The position numbers and the translations under genes were made by a program. A stretch of DNA of 21,127 nt from Bodo saltans. Taxonomy: Eukaryota; Euglenozoa; Kinetoplastea; Eubodonida; Bodonidae. Of this stretch, positions 2,326 to 20,751 are shown piece after piece. Where the stretch lies: positions 4,312 through 25,438 of the forward strand of contig CYKH01001926.1 in NCBI GenBank assembly GCA_001460835.1, given 5' to 3'. Each line of letters begins with the position of its first letter. The stretch's first letter is position 1. The notes under the pieces were generated by a model. The model searched no databases and was not told the DNA's origin. It was given only the letters and a program-made list of their open reading frames with translations.

Positions 2326-2886
2326 ATGTCTCTCAATACTCGCATGTGTCAATATGCAGTGCTTACGCTGATGTCCATGGTCATAGTGACAACTCATGCT
2401 CAGGATATTATCGGCGCAACTCTTGAGGTGTGCCTTAGCTGCCGCGTTAAGGACCTTCCTGAGATTTCTCACTTTACAAGCGAAGTCCTTCCGCTGTACC
2501 CCGCGGTAACGCTTGAAGACGTTATTGGCTCAGAGCCAGTCCTCCGTTACCTTGACGCCTATGGAGTCCCAGTAAAATCTGTTTTGGTTGCAGGTTTGTC
2601 GTCCGACGCAATTATCGAACATCTTGCGGAGAATGGCATTTTTATGTGGACGCCACAAGCAGAGTATCTTCCTCTTCCCATCGAAGCCATCGACAACTGC
2701 ATCGCATGGCGACAAACCAACGGATGCAGTGGGGAGTCCGGATTGCGGGAGCCTCGGTTGGATGAGAAGTGTGATGTCCGCATTACATTTGATCGATCTG
2801 GGTATTGTGAATGCGCTCACGGAAAGCGCGTCGTGTTGGATTGTGATCATGATGAGGGCAATTGTTTGCAATACTGCTCCGCATAA
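2326..2886 (+). CDS. Secreted SelM/Sep15-like CxxC protein with C-terminal 8-cysteine domain, copy A
   Basis: This 186-residue protein has a signal peptide at about residues 1-25 (hydrophobic core, cleavage near THA/Q); Met7 is an alternative start. Residues about 33-110 resemble the SelM/Sep15 thioredoxin-like domain: CLSC at 36-39 sits where the animal proteins carry a Cys/Sec redox motif, followed by a helix resembling LPEV-F, the strand region around the G-EPVL segment, and a terminal helix. The linker leads to a second cysteine domain at 125-184 with spacing C-x8-C-x14-C-x11-C-x-C-x9-C-x6-C-x3-C, including AWRQTNGC and SGYCEC. Both domains align with the neighbour at 3203-3916, so the two genes are a diverged tandem pair. 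The SelM/Sep15 family acts in the ER in thiol-redox chemistry and glycoprotein quality control; that role here is inferred. No ER-retention ending is seen (C-terminus CSA), so this copy may be secreted. Confidence 0.85.
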   Translation: MSLNTRMCQYAVLTLMSMVIVTTHAQDIIGATLEVCLSCRVKDLPEISHFTSEVLPLYPAVTLEDVIGSEPVLRYLDAYGVPVKSVLVAGLSSDAIIEHLAENGIFMWTPQAEYLPLPIEAIDNCIAWRQTNGCSGESGLREPRLDEKCDVRITFDRSGYCECAHGKRVVLDCDHDEGNCLQYCSA

Positions 2887-3202
2887 GAGAGCAGCAAAAG
2901 TAACGACTACCACCTTCACACGTTGTTATTGTCGTTCGTTGCACTCTGTGTTCTCCATCAACACCACTCACAAGCATTGTGCGCCGCACACACGTTGCAT
3001 TCATATTTATTGTGAGTGTCATTATCACCCAGAGGCAGCACTTTACCCTATGGTACAGGCCCTCGTGTTTTTTCAGGGGCGTGCAATATTGTTGTATGTT
3101 CTTCTCATTGATGTCGTACACTAAAACCACAAAAGCGCATGCCGCTTCGAAAGATCTCCCAATTGCTTCAGTTACCAAAGTAGTGAAGAAGAAAAAAGCA
3201 TT
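2887..3202. other. Intergenic spacer between the SelM-like paralogues
   Basis: This 316-base spacer holds one good acceptor-like site (see 3066-3076) and CA/TG-rich sequence. I see no gene or repeat. Its sequence does not visibly resemble the spacer upstream of the first paralogue. Confidence 0.6.
3066..3076 (+). promoter_or_regulatory. Predicted trans-splice acceptor for the 3203 gene
   Basis: The site reads TGTTTTTTCAG with AG at 3075-3076 and would leave a 5' UTR of about 126 bases. The tract is short but uninterrupted. Later AGs closer to the start are possible alternatives. Confidence 0.4.
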
Positions 3203-3916
3203 ATGTTTCTGCTTCGAGTGATTACCCTCGCCGTTATTGCAGTTGCCCTTGTTGCTGGAGCGCAGCCAACCTCGTCAGATCCCAGAGACGCTGGGCCGAT
3301 CGTGGGAGCACGTGTCAAGACATGCAGTGGCTGCCGCCTCAACTCTCTAACGGAAGTGCGGCGCTTCATCAAAGACGAGATGCGCCGCTACCCCGCCATC
3401 GACTTGCAGTACATTGGGGGCCACGATCCTATTATCGAATTTGTCAATCGCTACAATCGTGTCGTGCTGCGTGAAGAGATGTCTCCCTACAGCATCCGAG
3501 AGCTTCATACCCTCGTACAGAATCATGGGATTCACACCTACACGCCAAAGCCGAGCTTTGACCCCTTCCCATTCAGCCCTGTCGGTGTTTGCAACGCTTG
3601 GAGGCAGACAGGTGGCTGCGATCCGAATGGTCCGAGGGAGACGACGGCGGATGAGAGCTGCCTTGACGATATTGATGTTGGACGCAGTGGATACTGCGAT
3701 TGTGCGGAAGGAGTGCGCCACGGGTTTGCATGCGATCACGTCCCCTTCACGTGCAAAGCAGTCTGCGAGGACCCTTCCATCGTGACGGTGAAGCCCATGG
3801 TGCAAGAACCCTCCCCTGTCACTGCAGAGGACCTTGAAGTTCTGCCAACTGATGACGATCAGCAAGAACGCAAACAACAAGAACAACAGCAACAGCAGCA
3901 CTCGGAGGAGCTGTAG
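3203..3916 (+). CDS. SelM/Sep15-like CxxC protein with 8-cysteine domain and SEEL C-terminus, copy B
   Basis: This 237-residue protein has a signal peptide at about residues 1-20 (cleavage near AGA/Q). The SelM/Sep15-like domain spans about 38-113: CSGC (41-44) is followed by RLNSLTEVRRFI, a close fit to the conserved start of that family's first helix, with Cys in the position where animal SelM has selenocysteine. The second domain (130-188) has cysteine spacing C-x8-C-x13-C-x11-C-x-C-x9-C-x6-C-x3-C, with AWRQTGGC, a SGYCDC motif and HVPFTC. A roughly 49-residue tail rich in Pro, Glu and Asp runs into a Gln-rich stretch and ends in SEEL. SEEL satisfies the PROSITE ER-retention pattern [KRHQSA]-[DENQ]-E-L. 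I infer a soluble ER-resident thiol protein. The tail and retention signal are absent from the upstream paralogue. I recall WRQTGGC-type domains in secretory proteins of algae and oomycetes, but have not checked this. Confidence 0.88.
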   Translation: MFLLRVITLAVIAVALVAGAQPTSSDPRDAGPIVGARVKTCSGCRLNSLTEVRRFIKDEMRRYPAIDLQYIGGHDPIIEFVNRYNRVVLREEMSPYSIRELHTLVQNHGIHTYTPKPSFDPFPFSPVGVCNAWRQTGGCDPNGPRETTADESCLDDIDVGRSGYCDCAEGVRHGFACDHVPFTCKAVCEDPSIVTVKPMVQEPSPVTAEDLEVLPTDDDQQERKQQEQQQQQHSEEL

Positions 3917-9490: not shown

Positions 9491-9637
9491 AGAGATGTAC
9501 TGTGTGCTGGCTGGTGCGCTTCACGATCGAAAAAAATCTTCGCGAGAGAATTTGTTCTGTGTTTGAATTATTGCGAACCTTTAGCTCCTGCAAAAAGAAA
9601 GATGTAGCGCATCTTCTTGATTTTCAAATTTGGCTCG

Positions 9638-9662
9638 TCTGTTTCTTTTTGCGATTGCAAAG
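9638..9662 (+). promoter_or_regulatory. Predicted trans-splice acceptor for the 9773 gene
   Basis: CTGTTTCTTTTTGCGATTGCAAAG provides a short pyrimidine tract with AG at 9661-9662, for a 5' UTR of about 110 bases. The UTR is unusually rich in CA and AAC and contains a direct repeat (see the repeat at 9725-9764). Confidence 0.4.
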
Positions 9663-9724
9663 CGACGAAAGGAATCCATTCTCAATCAAAAGGACACGAT
9701 TCACACACAACAAACTTCATATCA

Positions 9725-9764
9725 CACAACAATATCACAACACATTTCAACACAACAATATCAC
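9725..9764 (+). repeat. 14-bp direct repeat in the 5' UTR of the third 12-cysteine gene
   Basis: CACAACAATATCAC occurs at 9725-9738 and again at 9751-9764, a period of 26 bases, in a CA-rich leader just upstream of the ATG at 9773. It could be a remnant of a local duplication or an RNA-binding site in the leader. Nothing in the sequence decides between these. Confidence 0.6.
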
Positions 9765-9772
9765 TTCCACAC

Positions 9773-10138
9773 ATGGCAACTTCCCATCATCACGTTCTGG
9801 TTGCAGTAGTAGCAATCCTTGCCACTGTCGCCTGGACATCATTTGCATGCGAAACCGACGACCACTGCCGTCCCTCTTCGTGCTGCCACAGCAACCAATG
9901 CGTTGATACCACCAAAGCTCCTCCTCCGAATTGCACCGACGTGCTCTGCACCGCGGGCTGCGAGCATGACACCCTGGACTGCGGTGGTGAGTGCATGTGC
10001 ACCGCGAGCAAGGTGTGTGCTCCGCATGTACGCGCGGGGATGCCACCGGACGGCGCTGGTGATTGGGGAGTCCCCAAGCCCCAGACCGGACATGCGCGTA
10101 CCATCAAGAGGGTCGTCATTCGCAAGCAGAAGGGCTGA
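9773..10138 (+). CDS. Small secreted 12-cysteine protein, copy 3
   Basis: This 121-residue protein starts at 9773. An upstream in-frame ATG (9617) would bury the signal peptide, so 9773 is chosen. Residues 1-25 are a signal peptide with a histidine triplet before the hydrophobic core and a SFA cleavage site. The mature chain begins at Cys26, as in copy 2. All twelve cysteines keep exactly the spacing of copy 2, with PSSCCH, CVDTTKAPPPNC, LDCGGEC and GMPPD. The tail after GMPPD is Gly/Pro-containing and ends in a strongly basic stretch (TIKRVVIRKQKG). It is separated from the other two copies by the SelM-like pair, the 1136-residue protein and the Seh1-like gene, so the family is dispersed and not one simple tandem array. 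Function unknown; a secreted or lumenal disulfide-rich protein is inferred. Confidence 0.92.
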   Translation: MATSHHHVLVAVVAILATVAWTSFACETDDHCRPSSCCHSNQCVDTTKAPPPNCTDVLCTAGCEHDTLDCGGECMCTASKVCAPHVRAGMPPDGAGDWGVPKPQTGHARTIKRVVIRKQKG

Positions 10139-11318: not shown

Positions 11319-12722
11319 ATGGACTCCGCCAGTACTATTCGCCTTGTGCGTGAGTTACGTATCGTGGATGAGGCTACCATCAAGACGCTCGACCAATTAT
11401 TCGCCGGGAATCTTAACGACGACCTTGTCGACAGCCTCGTCACGGGCCGAGAGGCTCCCATCGCGTTAGCGTTGTACAAGGTAGTCCAGGCGTCTTCGGC
11501 AGGTGTACGAAGCTTCGTGTTGCGCTTCTTGGCGAATTTATGTCAAGCGTGCCGCACGTTTGCGAAAGAATTCACCGTGGAAGATGCTGTGGAGAAGTTC
11601 GGCTCCGAGCCCGCTGCAGTGTTTCTTGATATCGCTGTCCAAAACGCCGAGAATGTTGCCGTCACGAGCGCCGCCCTTCACCTTAGCGCCAACGTGATCC
11701 GTAGTGCATCGGGTTCAATTGCTCGCTACGAGAGCACCATTCAGCGCTTCTTTGGGCACGTTCAGACCGTTCTGAATGTCGCGGAGCTGAATGCCAACAC
11801 CATCGAGTACCCCATTCACGCTTGCTCTCAACTTGTTCGCCGTAAGGCCATCCGCCCTTACTTCCTGAACTCTGGCATCGTTGAGCACATTCCTCGCATC
11901 CTCACCGAGGCGTGTGCCACCGATAATTCTGCCGTCATTCAGCTCTCCTACGAGACTCTCTTAATTTGCTGGTTGCTCAGCTTTGAGTTCCCTTGCATCG
12001 TTGCCCTGCACAAGGTGAAGATTATTCCCACCATCCACCGAGTCCTTCAGCGCCTTCAGAAGGAGAAGTGCATTCGCGTGGCCCTTCTTACCCTTCGCAA
12101 CTTTGCTGAGGCCCAGCTCAAGTATTACAACTTGCGCCACGGCACCATTGACTTGGGGTTTGCAGAGTCTGTGCAACTTCACGTACTCGGTGAGATCAAC
12201 GGCGGAAAGGGGCCAAACTTCTTCGCTGACATGATCGGTGTCGGCCTCGTAAAAACTCTTTGGCAACTTGCTCGCCGCAAGTTCGGTGATGATGACATCG
12301 CCAAGGAGATCGAAGAAATGACCACTCTGCTTGACCAGAACTTGGAGCAGATGAGCAGCTTCACTGAGTACAAAGGTGAAGTGCAGTCCGGTGTCCTCGA
12401 GTGGTCCCCCGTGCATACGTCCACAAAATTCTGGAGGGAGAACGCGAACAAGTTCGAGGAGAACAACTACGAAGTGCTGTCCAGCCTCCGCGACCTCGTG
12501 GTGACCTCGCACAACGATCTTACCCTTGCGGTTGCGTGCTACGATATCGGTGAGCTCGTTCGCCACCACCCCTCTGGTCGCGCTCTTCTGCAGTTGCCTC
12601 AGCTGGCCAACGCCAAAGAAAAGATTATGCACTTGATGAGCCACAAGAACTCTGAGGTGGCCAAGAACGCATTGTTGGCGGTCCAAAAGATTATGGTGCA
12701 GCGATGGGAGTTCATCAAATAA
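11319..12722 (+). CDS. VMA13: V-type proton ATPase subunit H
   Basis: This gene encodes 467 residues, a usual length for subunit H (roughly 450-500). The protein is the regulatory subunit of the peripheral V1 sector. It couples V1 to Vo and silences free V1, so it governs proton pumping into acidic organelles. The N-terminal 350 residues are all-helical, HEAT/ARM-like repeats. The C-terminal domain begins at about residue 361 with the diagnostic motif EWSPVHTSTKFWRENANKF, continues EENNYEVL, and then has the AVACYDIGELVRHHPSGRALL region and a final EVAKNALLAVQKIMVQRW segment, all typical of the family. No signal peptide or membrane span is seen, as expected. The ATG at 11319 is the first in frame and fits an N-terminus without extension. 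It is flanked by long spacers and shows no functional link with its neighbours. Confidence 0.96.
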   Translation: MDSASTIRLVRELRIVDEATIKTLDQLFAGNLNDDLVDSLVTGREAPIALALYKVVQASSAGVRSFVLRFLANLCQACRTFAKEFTVEDAVEKFGSEPAAVFLDIAVQNAENVAVTSAALHLSANVIRSASGSIARYESTIQRFFGHVQTVLNVAELNANTIEYPIHACSQLVRRKAIRPYFLNSGIVEHIPRILTEACATDNSAVIQLSYETLLICWLLSFEFPCIVALHKVKIIPTIHRVLQRLQKEKCIRVALLTLRNFAEAQLKYYNLRHGTIDLGFAESVQLHVLGEINGGKGPNFFADMIGVGLVKTLWQLARRKFGDDDIAKEIEEMTTLLDQNLEQMSSFTEYKGEVQSGVLEWSPVHTSTKFWRENANKFEENNYEVLSSLRDLVVTSHNDLTLAVACYDIGELVRHHPSGRALLQLPQLANAKEKIMHLMSHKNSEVAKNALLAVQKIMVQRWEFIK

Positions 12723-16347: not shown

Positions 16348-16666
16348 CAGCGAAGCAAGTACACCAACAACGAGAGAGCAAAAGTCTCTGAAGCAAAACA
16401 TCCTCCCCCCACACACAAGTGAAACCGTCGGTGTGGCGACCTGTATCCCTCGATCCTTTTCCCCCTTTCTCTCTCTTGATGATCTCATCCCAGCTGTGGC
16501 TCACACAGTTCTTTGATCGTTTTGTTTATTCTCGCATCCTGTTGAGTACCCGACGGTGGTGTTGTTCCCTCACCTCTTTGTGTATTTTGCTCTTCTTTTT
16601 TTTCAAATGCGCACACTTTCATTTTGGTGTGAATACCTCGTTACCTCCCTTCGCCTTTTTTGGTTG

Positions 16667-16696
16667 AGCTTCACTTTTTTTCTTTTCTATGCTTAG
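16667..16696 (+). promoter_or_regulatory. Predicted trans-splice acceptor for SMC4
   Basis: A T-rich tract from about 16667 (TTCACTTTTTTTCTTTTC) runs to CTATGCTTAG, with AG at 16695-16696, giving a 5' UTR of about 32 bases. A T run at 16711-16721 with AAG immediately before the start would leave almost no leader and is less likely. Confidence 0.45.
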
Positions 16697-16728
16697 AGTG
16701 TCGACAGAATATTTTTTTTTTCAAGGCA

Positions 16729-19700
16729 ATGAGCAACGTGAGCAGGGCAATTTCATCATCGATTGGAGAACATCACTCTCATTCTGCCACCCAGAACAAC
16801 CCACCGACTCGGTTCGTCATCCGCGACATCGATGTCGAAAATTTTAAGTCATACGCAGGAACCCACCGCATTGGGCCCTTCCACAAGACCTTCACGTGTG
16901 TCATTGGCCCAAACGGGTCAGGCAAATCTAACGTCATCGACGCGATGCTTTTTGTGTTCGGCAAAGCCGCAAAGAAGATCCGCTTGGAAAAATTATCCGA
17001 GCTGATTCATTCCTCCGCGGCGTTCCCGCAGCTGTCCTACGCTGCGGTGACGGTGAACTTTATTGAAGTGCGAGAGACCAAAGAAGACGCTGATGATCCT
17101 ACGCAGCGCCTTGAAATCCCAGGGACAGAGCTGTCCATCAAGCGCGAAGTGCATCGCAACAATCAGTCGCAGTACTTCATCAACAACATTCGATCCACGC
17201 AGAAAGAAGTTGTTGCAACACTGACGGAGAAGGGCGTCGATCTCGACCACAACCGATTTCTGATTCTACAAGGTGAAGTGGAACAGATTTCACTGATGAA
17301 GCCAAAGGCAGAGAAGGAAGGGGAGGAGGGCCTACTTGAGTACCTCGATGATCTGATTGGGACGAACCAATACGTCGACAGCATCACCCAAGCTGCTGCT
17401 GCGTTTGATCACGTGCAGGAAGAGCGCCTCGGCATCCTCGATGACCTCCGACGCGCGCTGGCCGATAGAAATGCGCTAGAGGCGGCAAAGCTTTCGACCC
17501 TCAACTACGTGACGAAGGACAATCACTTGCAACGAACGCTCATTGTCCTTTGCCAACTGAAGACGGAAGACATGGAGAAGCAGCTTGTGGGGCCGCGCAA
17601 GCGTCTCGAAGCGCTCGTTCAGGAGCTGCAGGCCATAGATGCAAAGTCAAAAGAAACGCGTGATGCCGTCGGTGAATTGTCTAAGGAAGAAGACGCCAAG
17701 AAGAAAATTGTTAAGGCTGCTACAGTAGAGCTGGAGGCCATCCGCAGCCGCAAGCTTGCGCTCGAGGAAGACTACGAGAAGGAGAAGGCGAGTGCCGAGG
17801 AACAAGAGAAACAGAGGAAAAAGGAAATGGACAAAATTAAGAAAGCCAGCGAGGAGATCAAAGCACATCAACTGCAAGCCCAGAATGCAGAGCTTGATGT
17901 CAGCCTCAAAGAGCAGCGCTTCCAAGAAGTGAAGGACGACCTTGCCGCCGAGGAGCCGCGGTACGCTGCTGCGAAGGATGCACTTGTCACCAAAGAAAAG
18001 CCCATCCGCGTAGAACTCGAGAAGGCGCGGAAGTCGCTATTACCGTACACAAGGAAGTTACAAGAAGCAGAAGAAGTGCGGTCCACCGCAGTGGAGCGAC
18101 TTCGCCGCGAGGAAGACAAGATCCATCGCGCTGAGAAGGACTTGGACGCTGCACGCCAAGACGTCTTCAAACAACAACAGATCGCTCGAGATGTGACGGA
18201 GATGCTCACAAAAGCGGAAAATGACACGACAGCACAGTCCATTCAGGCCATCCAGAGCAACTTGAAACAATGCGTCGCTCAGAAGCTGCAAATCAATCAG
18301 TCGATCGAAGACACCAAGAGAAACTTCAAGGAAGGGAGCGCGAACGATCGTATCGCCAACTACTTACTCTCTCAGCGGGACATTAAGAAATATTTTGGAA
18401 CGCTTCGACAACTTGGCCGGATTGACCCAGCGTTTGATGTTGCCGCCGGTGTTGCCAGCAACCAGTGGGGATTCCACGTGGTCGAAGACGAGGAAACCGC
18501 GACTCTTGTCCTTGAGCGTCTCAAGAGCAGCAACATGGGCCGCGCGACGCTTATCGTGCTCGACAAGGTTGGCAAGCGGCTCGCAGATAAAATCGACAGG
18601 AAATTTCAAGCACCCTCGCAGTCTGATCGCCTGTTCGACATGATCCAGCCGATTAACGAAAAGTTTCGACCAGCATTCTACAGTGCGGTGCAAGATACCC
18701 TCGTCTGTGAAGATTTGCAAACCGCCCGTCGCATCGGTTTCGGAGCTGGTGGTGGGGCCAGGCATCGCGTAGTGACGCGGTCCGGTGAGCTCGTCGAACC
18801 GAACGGAACAATTTTAGCAGGTGGTCAGCCCCGTCCTGCAGAACTCAATGCTGCCCGAGCACCTCAAGACCAACAAGCAGTGAAAGATGTCCTCATGAAG
18901 CTGCAACACGAGCTTCAAGACGCCGTTGCCAGAGAGAACGGAGTGAGAGAGCAGTTGGTGCAGCTCGAGCAGCAAAACAGCTCCATTAGCCCAGATCAAA
19001 TTCGCCGCATGAAGTCGCAGCTCACTGCTGCCAACGCCGCAGTCACCGCAGCAGAGCGTCGCATCGCAGAAATGGAGCGGCAGCTGGCACAGCTTCGTGA
19101 CAATGCCGCTCAGCAGGAGTTCCGGGCCAATCTCAAGCAACGCATCAACGAAGCATCGGATGCGGTGAGGACGTGCGAGGAGGAGCAGTCGGAGTTCCAG
19201 AACACAGTAAAGGAATTAGAGCGACAGCTTGCTAACATTGGTGGTGCAGAGTTCCTTGAGCTCGAGAAGTCCGTCTTGTCAATGCGAACTCGTCTTGATG
19301 TTGATGAGAAGGCGCTGCGAGAGGCGAAGAAGGTTCTTCAAAAATCAGCAGCAACGAAGGAACGAAAAGAAAAAGATCTTCTCGAGGCCCAAGCGCGCCT
19401 CGAGGCCTTGCGCGATGAAAACGCGGAGCAGCTCAAGGAGCAGCTGTCGAGGCTGCAGCAGCTTGTCGACACCGCTGAGAAGGAACGACTCCGTCAGCAA
19501 AAAGTCGTCGCCGATGCCGAAACTGCGGTGGAAAACGTCAAAAGTCAAATCACTGTCTTGGAAGAGCAACTACGGGAGCACAACAAAGAGAGAGACCGCA
19601 CCGAAGAAACGCGCCAGCAAGAAGAGGCGACCATTTCGAAGGAACTCGCAACCCTTGGTAAGCTCACTGAGAAGCTTCAGCGTGCCGAGGAGCACATTCG

Positions 19701-20751
19701 CGACAACATTCGTTCCTACGGCGCGGACACGTACGAGCCACAGAATGGGGTCAAGGGTGAGGAGTACCCGGACCTCAGCGACGACGATAGCGACGAAAAT
19801 TCGAAAAACGAAACGCGTGCGCGAAAGCGTGCTCTCAGCACGGACGGATCCGATGACGACGACGCTGATGCGGCTCCACGCCCCAGCCATCTCTCCACGA
19901 CCGAAGGAGACGAACCGAAGCAGACCCCACAGCTCACAGAGGCTCAAATATCAGCGATTGTGTTTACCGTTCCCGTCGAGAAGCTTGTGAACTACGACTA
20001 TCAACACAGCTCGCACTTGGCTCGTGAACTCAGTGAAGAGATCAAACGGCTCGAGGCGACCATCGACTTCACTGCGGTTGGTCGCTGGAGGGAGAAGGAT
20101 GTCATCTACCGGCGGATCAAGGACAGCTACGATACTGTTCGGACTCGTCTGGACAATGCTGAGCTTCAGCTGAACACGCTGAAGGATCGCCGCAAGAAGG
20201 AATTCTTGGAGTGTTTCCACATCATCCAACGGAACGTCAAGGAGATGTACCAGATGCTCACGCACGGTGGTGACGCTGAGGTGGAGCTGGTGGACACGCA
20301 AGATCCATTTGAGGGCGTCAACTTTTTAGTTCGGCCTCCGAAGAAATCGTGGAAGCAAGTCTCGAACCTTTCCGGTGGCGAGAAGACGCTGTCCAGCCTA
20401 GCCCTTGTGTTTGCGTTGCACCATGTGCGACCCACCCCAGTCTACGTCATGGACGAGATTGATGCCGCGCTAGACTTCAAGAACGTATCCATTGTAGCGA
20501 ACTATGTTCTGCGACAGGCAACCGGTGCTCAGTTTATTATCATCTCACTCCGCAACAACATGTTTGAACTGGCGCACCAGCTAGTTGGCATTTGCAAAAT
20601 CCGTGACGTGACTCGGAGCCTCACGCTCAACCCACACGCAATGCAGCACATGATACACGAAACGCTGATCCGGCAACAGCAGGCACGCCGCCAAAAGCGA
20701 GCACGCGACGAGGGGGCCGCGCTGATTTCAGATCACGCACGTGTCGATTGA
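16729..20751 (+). CDS. SMC4: Structural maintenance of chromosomes protein 4 (condensin subunit)
   Basis: The protein is 1340 residues from the ATG at 16729. An in-frame ATG at 16660 is rejected because the extension is spacer-like and contains the acceptor tract. SMC4 pairs with SMC2 as the ATPase core of condensin, which compacts and segregates chromosomes. Seen in order: Walker A GPNGSGKS (60-67) followed by NVIDAMLFVFG and KKIRLEKLSELIH, an SMC4-type head sequence; the Q-loop in RFLILQGEVEQ (Gln181); an MKPKAEKEGEEGLLEYLDD segment typical of SMC4; a long coiled coil; a hinge at about 545-720; the returning coiled coil; an acidic Asp/Ser-rich insert at about 1005-1070; ABC signature LSGGE (1214-1218); Walker B VYVMDE (1238-1243) and the D-loop. 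All key ATPase residues are intact. The length is in the usual range. Confidence 0.98.
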   Translation: MSNVSRAISSSIGEHHSHSATQNNPPTRFVIRDIDVENFKSYAGTHRIGPFHKTFTCVIGPNGSGKSNVIDAMLFVFGKAAKKIRLEKLSELIHSSAAFPQLSYAAVTVNFIEVRETKEDADDPTQRLEIPGTELSIKREVHRNNQSQYFINNIRSTQKEVVATLTEKGVDLDHNRFLILQGEVEQISLMKPKAEKEGEEGLLEYLDDLIGTNQYVDSITQAAAAFDHVQEERLGILDDLRRALADRNALEAAKLSTLNYVTKDNHLQRTLIVLCQLKTEDMEKQLVGPRKRLEALVQELQAIDAKSKETRDAVGELSKEEDAKKKIVKAATVELEAIRSRKLALEEDYEKEKASAEEQEKQRKKEMDKIKKASEEIKAHQLQAQNAELDVSLKEQRFQEVKDDLAAEEPRYAAAKDALVTKEKPIRVELEKARKSLLPYTRKLQEAEEVRSTAVERLRREEDKIHRAEKDLDAARQDVFKQQQIARDVTEMLTKAENDTTAQSIQAIQSNLKQCVAQKLQINQSIEDTKRNFKEGSANDRIANYLLSQRDIKKYFGTLRQLGRIDPAFDVAAGVASNQWGFHVVEDEETATLVLERLKSSNMGRATLIVLDKVGKRLADKIDRKFQAPSQSDRLFDMIQPINEKFRPAFYSAVQDTLVCEDLQTARRIGFGAGGGARHRVVTRSGELVEPNGTILAGGQPRPAELNAARAPQDQQAVKDVLMKLQHELQDAVARENGVREQLVQLEQQNSSISPDQIRRMKSQLTAANAAVTAAERRIAEMERQLAQLRDNAAQQEFRANLKQRINEASDAVRTCEEEQSEFQNTVKELERQLANIGGAEFLELEKSVLSMRTRLDVDEKALREAKKVLQKSAATKERKEKDLLEAQARLEALRDENAEQLKEQLSRLQQLVDTAEKERLRQQKVVADAETAVENVKSQITVLEEQLREHNKERDRTEETRQQEEATISKELATLGKLTEKLQRAEEHIRDNIRSYGADTYEPQNGVKGEEYPDLSDDDSDENSKNETRARKRALSTDGSDDDDADAAPRPSHLSTTEGDEPKQTPQLTEAQISAIVFTVPVEKLVNYDYQHSSHLARELSEEIKRLEATIDFTAVGRWREKDVIYRRIKDSYDTVRTRLDNAELQLNTLKDRRKKEFLECFHIIQRNVKEMYQMLTHGGDAEVELVDTQDPFEGVNFLVRPPKKSWKQVSNLSGGEKTLSSLALVFALHHVRPTPVYVMDEIDAALDFKNVSIVANYVLRQATGAQFIIISLRNNMFELAHQLVGICKIRDVTRSLTLNPHAMQHMIHETLIRQQQARRQKRARDEGAALISDHARVD

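Follow-up and report, generated by a model that had tools for sequence, protein, structure and literature searches.

Background

The closest described relatives of the proteins reported here are Sep15 (SELENOF; solved structure 2a4h) and SelM (2a2p), which share the redox domain PF08806. Sep15 combines this domain with a cysteine-rich domain which, according to PMC7687155, is N-terminal, about 50 residues long, has six invariant cysteines and binds UGGT; the redox motif is given there as CxU, and the animal protein is described as tethered to UGGT via the cysteine-rich domain. In fruit fly Sep15 the motif is CxC, according to PMC8360269. SelM has a signal peptide and a redox motif of CxxC/U spacing. 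PMC10668967 describes it as having no cysteine-rich domain, residues 121-145 forming a flexible end, and it does not bind UGGT (PMC7687155, PMC10668967). The role of Sep15 for UGGT, and the recruitment of glucosidase II, are presented as open questions in PMC7687155.

The window analysed here is a stretch of 21,127 nucleotides of Bodo saltans DNA. The original prediction, made from the letters of the window, was that a tandem pair of genes at 2326..3916 encodes two proteins, each with a signal peptide, a CxxC SelM/Sep15-like domain and a C-terminal cysteine domain, an architecture unlike that of typical animal SelM or Sep15. From it a distinct ER thiol protein was suggested, possibly with a client-binding module of its own. 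The analysis below supports the architecture, leaves ER residence and client binding as inferences, and finds the C-terminal domain again in the glucosidase II beta subunit of the same organism.

Results

The gene pair

Both open reading frames are present at the place predicted. They encode P0002 and, downstream of it, P0001, with the following features.

2326..2886, + strand: P0002, 186 aa; signal-peptide-like start, SelM/Sep15 redox domain, eight-cysteine domain
2326..2400, + strand: signal-peptide-like N-terminus of P0002 (residues 1-25, THA then QD; from a hydropathy peak of 1.89 at residues 7-21 and inspection)
2416..2637, + strand: Sep15_SelM domain of P0002 (residues 31-104; PF08806, E 8.4e-8, 32.6 bits, cut-off 26)
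2431..2442, + strand: CLSC, the redox motif of P0002, with TGC coding for each cysteine
2686..2880, + strand: eight-cysteine WRQT domain of P0002 (residues 121-185; held-out profile 56.2 bits)
3203..3916, + strand: P0001, 237 aa; signal-peptide-like start, SelM/Sep15 redox domain, eight-cysteine domain, tail
3203..3262, + strand: signal-peptide-like N-terminus of P0001 (residues 1-20, AGA then QP; from a hydropathy peak of 2.75 within residues 3-20 and inspection)
3311..3529, + strand: Sep15_SelM domain of P0001 (residues 37-109; PF08806, E 1.2e-12, 48.1 bits, cut-off 26)
3323..3334, + strand: CSGC, the redox motif of P0001, with TGC coding for each cysteine
3569..3766, + strand: eight-cysteine WRQT domain of P0001 (residues 123-188; held-out profile 68.4 bits)
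3902..3913, + strand: SEEL, C-terminus of P0001, from the sequence

The genes are divergent tandem paralogues. P0001 contains 10 cysteines, two in CSGC and eight in the C-terminal domain, and P0002 contains 11, with one in the signal region, two in CLSC and again eight in the C-terminal domain. The Pfam domain is separated from the putative signal peptide by 16 residues in P0001 and by five in P0002, with no cysteine among them, and a Sep15-type N-terminal six-cysteine domain was not found ahead of the redox domain of either protein. After the eight-cysteine domain P0001 continues into an acidic, glutamine-rich tail whose last residues, SEEL, fit the PROSITE ER-target pattern, [KRHQSA][DENQ]EL. 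The C-terminus of P0002 is CSA, without an ER-retrieval-like end.

The rest of the window contains three copies of a small, cysteine-rich and apparently secreted protein, two upstream of the redox pair (3-211 and 1415-1783) and one downstream (within the ORF 9617-10138, + strand). They follow the pattern SSCCH...CVD.TK...LDCGGEC.C..VC.P..R.GMPPD, with no Pfam match; compared with the copy at 1415, the other two show 50 and 62% identity, and the first is cut, the contig before the window reading N. On the same strand as the redox pair there are also genes for V-ATPase subunit H (11319-12722, +; PF03224, 2.6e-45) and an SMC protein (16660-20751, +; PF02463, 3.5e-68).

The redox domain

The expected SelM/Sep15 relationship was borne out in the N-terminal halves of both proteins, which score over the cut-off of PF08806 and in each case cover profile positions 2-74 (73 of 75). 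Compared with PDB sequences, P0001 is closest to SelM (2a2p, E 3.4e-9, 39.8 bits), with Sep15 far behind (2a4h, E 0.13, 15 bits). P0002 is approximately equally close to the two, and weakly so both ways (SelM, E 0.019, 18 bits; Sep15, E 0.0023, 21 bits). A profile of the pair found SelM at E 6.2e-10 and Sep15 at E 8.5e-6. Both CSGC and CLSC have the CxxC spacing of SelM, with cysteine where SelM has selenocysteine. No in-frame TGA of the selenocysteine type was found at the redox motifs, each of the four CxxC cysteines being encoded by TGC. By homology, the redox part of P0001 and P0002 is a further member of the known Sep15/SelM family. A match to R3H in P0001 (residues 77-113, E 0.024) was below the cut-off and was taken as chance.

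Structure prediction was also tried. With an input of the two sequences only, the model of P0001 and P0002 had a mean pLDDT of 47.5 and a pTM of 0.33. The isolated C-terminal domain, likewise with two input sequences, gave a best model with a mean pLDDT of 63.0, the other four lying at 39.3-40.6. The low confidence is probably due to the want of relatives in the alignment. Foldseek searches of the PDB with the two low-confidence models returned 157 and 47 matches at E <= 10, none of them at E <= 0.001. No thioredoxin-like fold was predicted, a result which at a mean pLDDT of 47.5 says nothing either way; homology to the solved SelM and Sep15 stands in for it, and suggests such a fold for the redox half of both proteins.

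The two proteins resemble Sep15 in having a redox domain together with a cysteine-rich domain, and SelM in the redox domain, the spacing of its motif and the signal-peptide-like start. They differ from Sep15, whose cysteine-rich domain is N-terminal and whose motif is CxU, in having a C-terminal eight-cysteine domain and CxxC, and from SelM in having a cysteine-rich domain after the redox domain at all. The contrast with the animal proteins that had been drawn beforehand agrees, in this respect, with PMC7687155 and PMC10668967.

The eight-cysteine domain

The C-terminal domain has eight cysteines in each protein, with the motifs WRQT-x-G-C and SGYC(D/E)C as originally described. The four full copies found in the genome (see below) share the pattern C-x8-C-x13/14-C-x10/11-C-x-C-x9/10/14-C-x6-C-x3-C, ie steps from cysteine to cysteine of 9, 14/15, 11/12, 2, 10/11/15, 7 and 4 residues. 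Their alignment has 16 invariant columns, which include all eight cysteines and WRQT; the invariant residues other than cysteine are W, R, Q, T, G, S, G and R. SG[YF]C is present in all four. The even count and nearly fixed spacing of the cysteines would suit stable disulfides.

The coherence of the family was measured by a held-out test, in which a profile built from three copies scored the fourth and 1000 shuffles of each copy served as the control, the best domain score being used throughout. The held-out copy scored 68.4 bits for P0001 (best shuffle 7.4), 56.2 for P0002 (7.6), 49.1 for P0003 (10.1) and 45.3 for P0004 (7.9). Between the paralogues P0001 and P0002, 29 of 64 positions are identical in the eight-cysteine part and 21 of 82 in the redox part, so the eight-cysteine domain is constrained at least as much as the catalytic domain.

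No described family was recognised in this half of the proteins. There was no Pfam-A match in the C-terminal half of P0001 or P0002 at E <= 1, and the best NCBIfam match (E 0.24; 11.1 bits, the cut-off being 60) was at chance level, as were the best PDB sequences for the eight-cysteine part, a feruloyl esterase for P0001 (E 0.24) and ATPTG16 for P0002 (E 0.36). With the domain profile the PDB search gave a single match, scytovirin, at E 2.7, and no glucosidase chain at E <= 10. Motif strings such as WRQTGGC were unmatched in the literature search, and titles and abstract openings on glucosidase II, Sep15, SelM, UGGT and kinetoplastids mentioned no such domain, most subscription papers lying outside both searches. 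From these comparisons the domain is apparently undescribed so far.

Collections of viral and other genome contigs were searched as well. P0001 gave 94 pattern stretches in the viral contigs, the alignment of the eight-cysteine domain gave 30 stretches there, and the genome contigs yielded 41 stretches; none was confirmed. These collections hold viruses and prokaryotes, and misses in them say little on eukaryotes. Fifteen viral contigs with a degenerate DNA pattern for WRQTGGC were considered and all were dropped, the best reaching 10.4 bits (E 0.073) with the domain profile, below the inclusion threshold. Stramenopile and haptophyte algae may have similar WRQT/SGYCEC blocks in some of their predicted proteins; in that case the domain would be older and wider than one lineage.

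Other carriers in the same genome

The domain was searched for in the one genome from which the window comes (29.3 Mb in 934 contigs), with the best candidates scored, so that the counts are lower bounds. With the C-terminal half as the query, at least five places in four proteins matched at E <= 1. These were P0001, P0002, one place on contig C41 (7.3e-11) and two on contig C574 (5.9e-7 and 0.098, the latter weak). When two other copies were used as queries (E <= 10), the same five places were found and nothing further.

The protein on contig C41, P0003, is 485 aa long counted from a TTG, with an ATG at residue 7. Its Pfam matches, PRKCSH-like (PF12999, 1.3e-35), PRKCSH_1 (PF13015, 1.3e-26) and PRKCSH (PF07915, 4.6e-11), identify it clearly as the beta subunit of glucosidase II. 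Ten distinct PDB sequences matched it, and the alignments of two were examined. The solved glucosidase 2 subunit beta 8d43 aligns to residues 15-231 and 325-484 (E 1e-61), and 7jty to residues 23-229 and 317-484. The eight-cysteine domain occupies residues 240-306, inside the gap (linker) of both alignments, and nothing in either solved chain aligns to it. The same organism's glucosidase II beta subunit thus holds the domain of P0001 and P0002, which are not themselves glucosidase subunits.

The protein on contig C574, P0004 (C574:19611-20385), is at least 372 aa long and incomplete at the contig end. It has a membrane-anchor-like stretch at residues 30-46, a full copy of the domain at 125-185 and, separated from this by a long stretch, a second copy which starts at 342, is cut by the contig end and reads WRSS in place of WRQT. 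No Pfam match was found anywhere in the incomplete protein. It looks like a type II membrane protein, and may be a Golgi protein.

Pfam detected no thioredoxin-like domain in P0003, nor in P0004 as far as it extends. The view that the second domain is separate from the redox fold is upheld by its recurrence in glucosidase II beta and in this third protein, which makes it a true, mobile module.

Glycoprotein quality-control genes

One gene for calreticulin is present in the genome, together with six matches to GH31 glucosidases, of which three reach E 1.1e-105 or lower. One GH31 match (C200:5586-6587, E 1.4e-112) lies within an open frame that, at 2528 aa, is unusually long. In this single genome there were no matches to the UGGT profile PF18404, for which the control was positive in 3 of 14 bacterial-type genomes (two over the cut-off), and none to a second UGGT profile, PF06427, or to the ALG6/8 profile PF03155, for both of which the control was silent. 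The absence of UGGT was rejected as a finding, ALG6/8 also being unmatched though glucosidase II and calreticulin are present. With neither UGGT nor ALG6/8 there would be no glucosylated glycan for glucosidase II and calreticulin, and a missed or unassembled UGGT is therefore likelier. In Trypanosoma brucei, according to PMC9472816, UGGT is present and the lipid-linked donor is without glucose.

Paraflagellar-rod profiles gave nine matches on eight contigs of the same genome, of which three reach E 2.5e-50 or lower and cover nearly the whole profile. The assignment of the genome to the Euglenozoa is based on these matches; none of the 14 control genomes matched, but they are a standard set that does not discriminate among eukaryotes. 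Kinetoplastid spliced-leader strings were not found in the genome, either as an exact 16-mer or as a 20-mer with at most one mismatch.

Discussion

The link to glucosidase II, which lies outside the window, is the strongest hint of what the eight-cysteine domain does. Our preferred reading, which we hold tentatively and at slightly short of an even chance, is that the domain may be a binding module, stabilised by disulfides, that serves glycoprotein quality control in the ER. Its ligand could be a shared partner, the client itself or a glycan that the client bears. By binding it the domain would recruit both the SelM/Sep15 redox site and glucosidase II to shared clients, and client disulfides would be reduced or isomerised during glucose trimming. 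The domain would be a functional counterpart of the UGGT-binding domain at the N-terminus of Sep15, though of a different kind and placed at the opposite end of the protein. The SEEL end of P0001 would retain that protein in the ER; P0002 has no SEEL-like end and might be retained there through binding to a partner, as proposed for Sep15. The calreticulin gene and the GH31 glucosidase genes of the genome are in keeping with this reading. That the paralogues are better conserved in the eight-cysteine domain than in the redox domain is as would be expected of a functional surface. Confinement to ER quality control, or to one ligand, is argued against by P0004, which may be a Golgi protein and whose cut copy has WRSS. 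That UGGT, the usual partner of Sep15, was not detected in the assembly is weak evidence against the preferred reading.

The same carriers would fit a narrower and rather less probable role, that of a small lectin-like domain whose sole ligands are N-glycans, bound directly. Redox domains, glucosidase II and a membrane enzyme would then be recruited to glycoproteins with no protein partner in common. This role amounts to the preferred reading with a glycan as the ligand. All the carriers could belong to the glycoprotein pathway, and W, R, Q and T, invariant in the four full copies, are residues of the kind that often serve sugar binding. Lectin repeats follow the membrane anchor in some Golgi enzymes, and P0004 has a full and a cut copy after its membrane-anchor-like stretch. 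The cut copy, however, has WRSS, glucosidase II beta is already equipped with a lectin domain of the MRH type (PF07915), and no significant match in sequence or fold to a lectin was obtained, scytovirin lying at E 2.7.

The linker position in glucosidase II beta is also what a passive, disulfide-stabilised spacer would give, and the spread of such a spacer among secretory proteins by domain shuffling would need no common ligand and no binding role. Conservation between the paralogues above that of the catalytic domain, and the invariant residues other than cysteine, argue against a spacer, which we regard as improbable. The least probable role is that of a partner, redox or structural, for the CxxC site, with disulfides that are shuffled by the adjacent redox domain of the same protein or regulate it. 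Eight cysteines do follow the CxxC domain in both P0001 and P0002. Yet the domain occurs as well in P0003 and in the incomplete P0004, in neither of which a thioredoxin-like domain is recognised by Pfam, and it therefore cannot need an adjacent CxxC for its role; the even number and near-fixed spacing of its cysteines suit stable disulfides.

Conclusions

The redox family to which P0001 and P0002 belong was already known; what appears to be new here is the combination of domains and the shared eight-cysteine module. A cysteine-rich partner of the Sep15/SelM redox domain can evidently be attached on either side of it, here on the C-terminal one. A module common to a Sep15/SelM-type reductase and to glucosidase II beta also offers a direct test, namely the identification of its ligand. 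It is possible, if on the whole unlikely, that the domain marks a quality-control set of the euglenozoan lineage in which disulfide repair and glucose trimming would be physically coupled via a common receptor or glycan, unlike the UGGT-Sep15 complex of animals.
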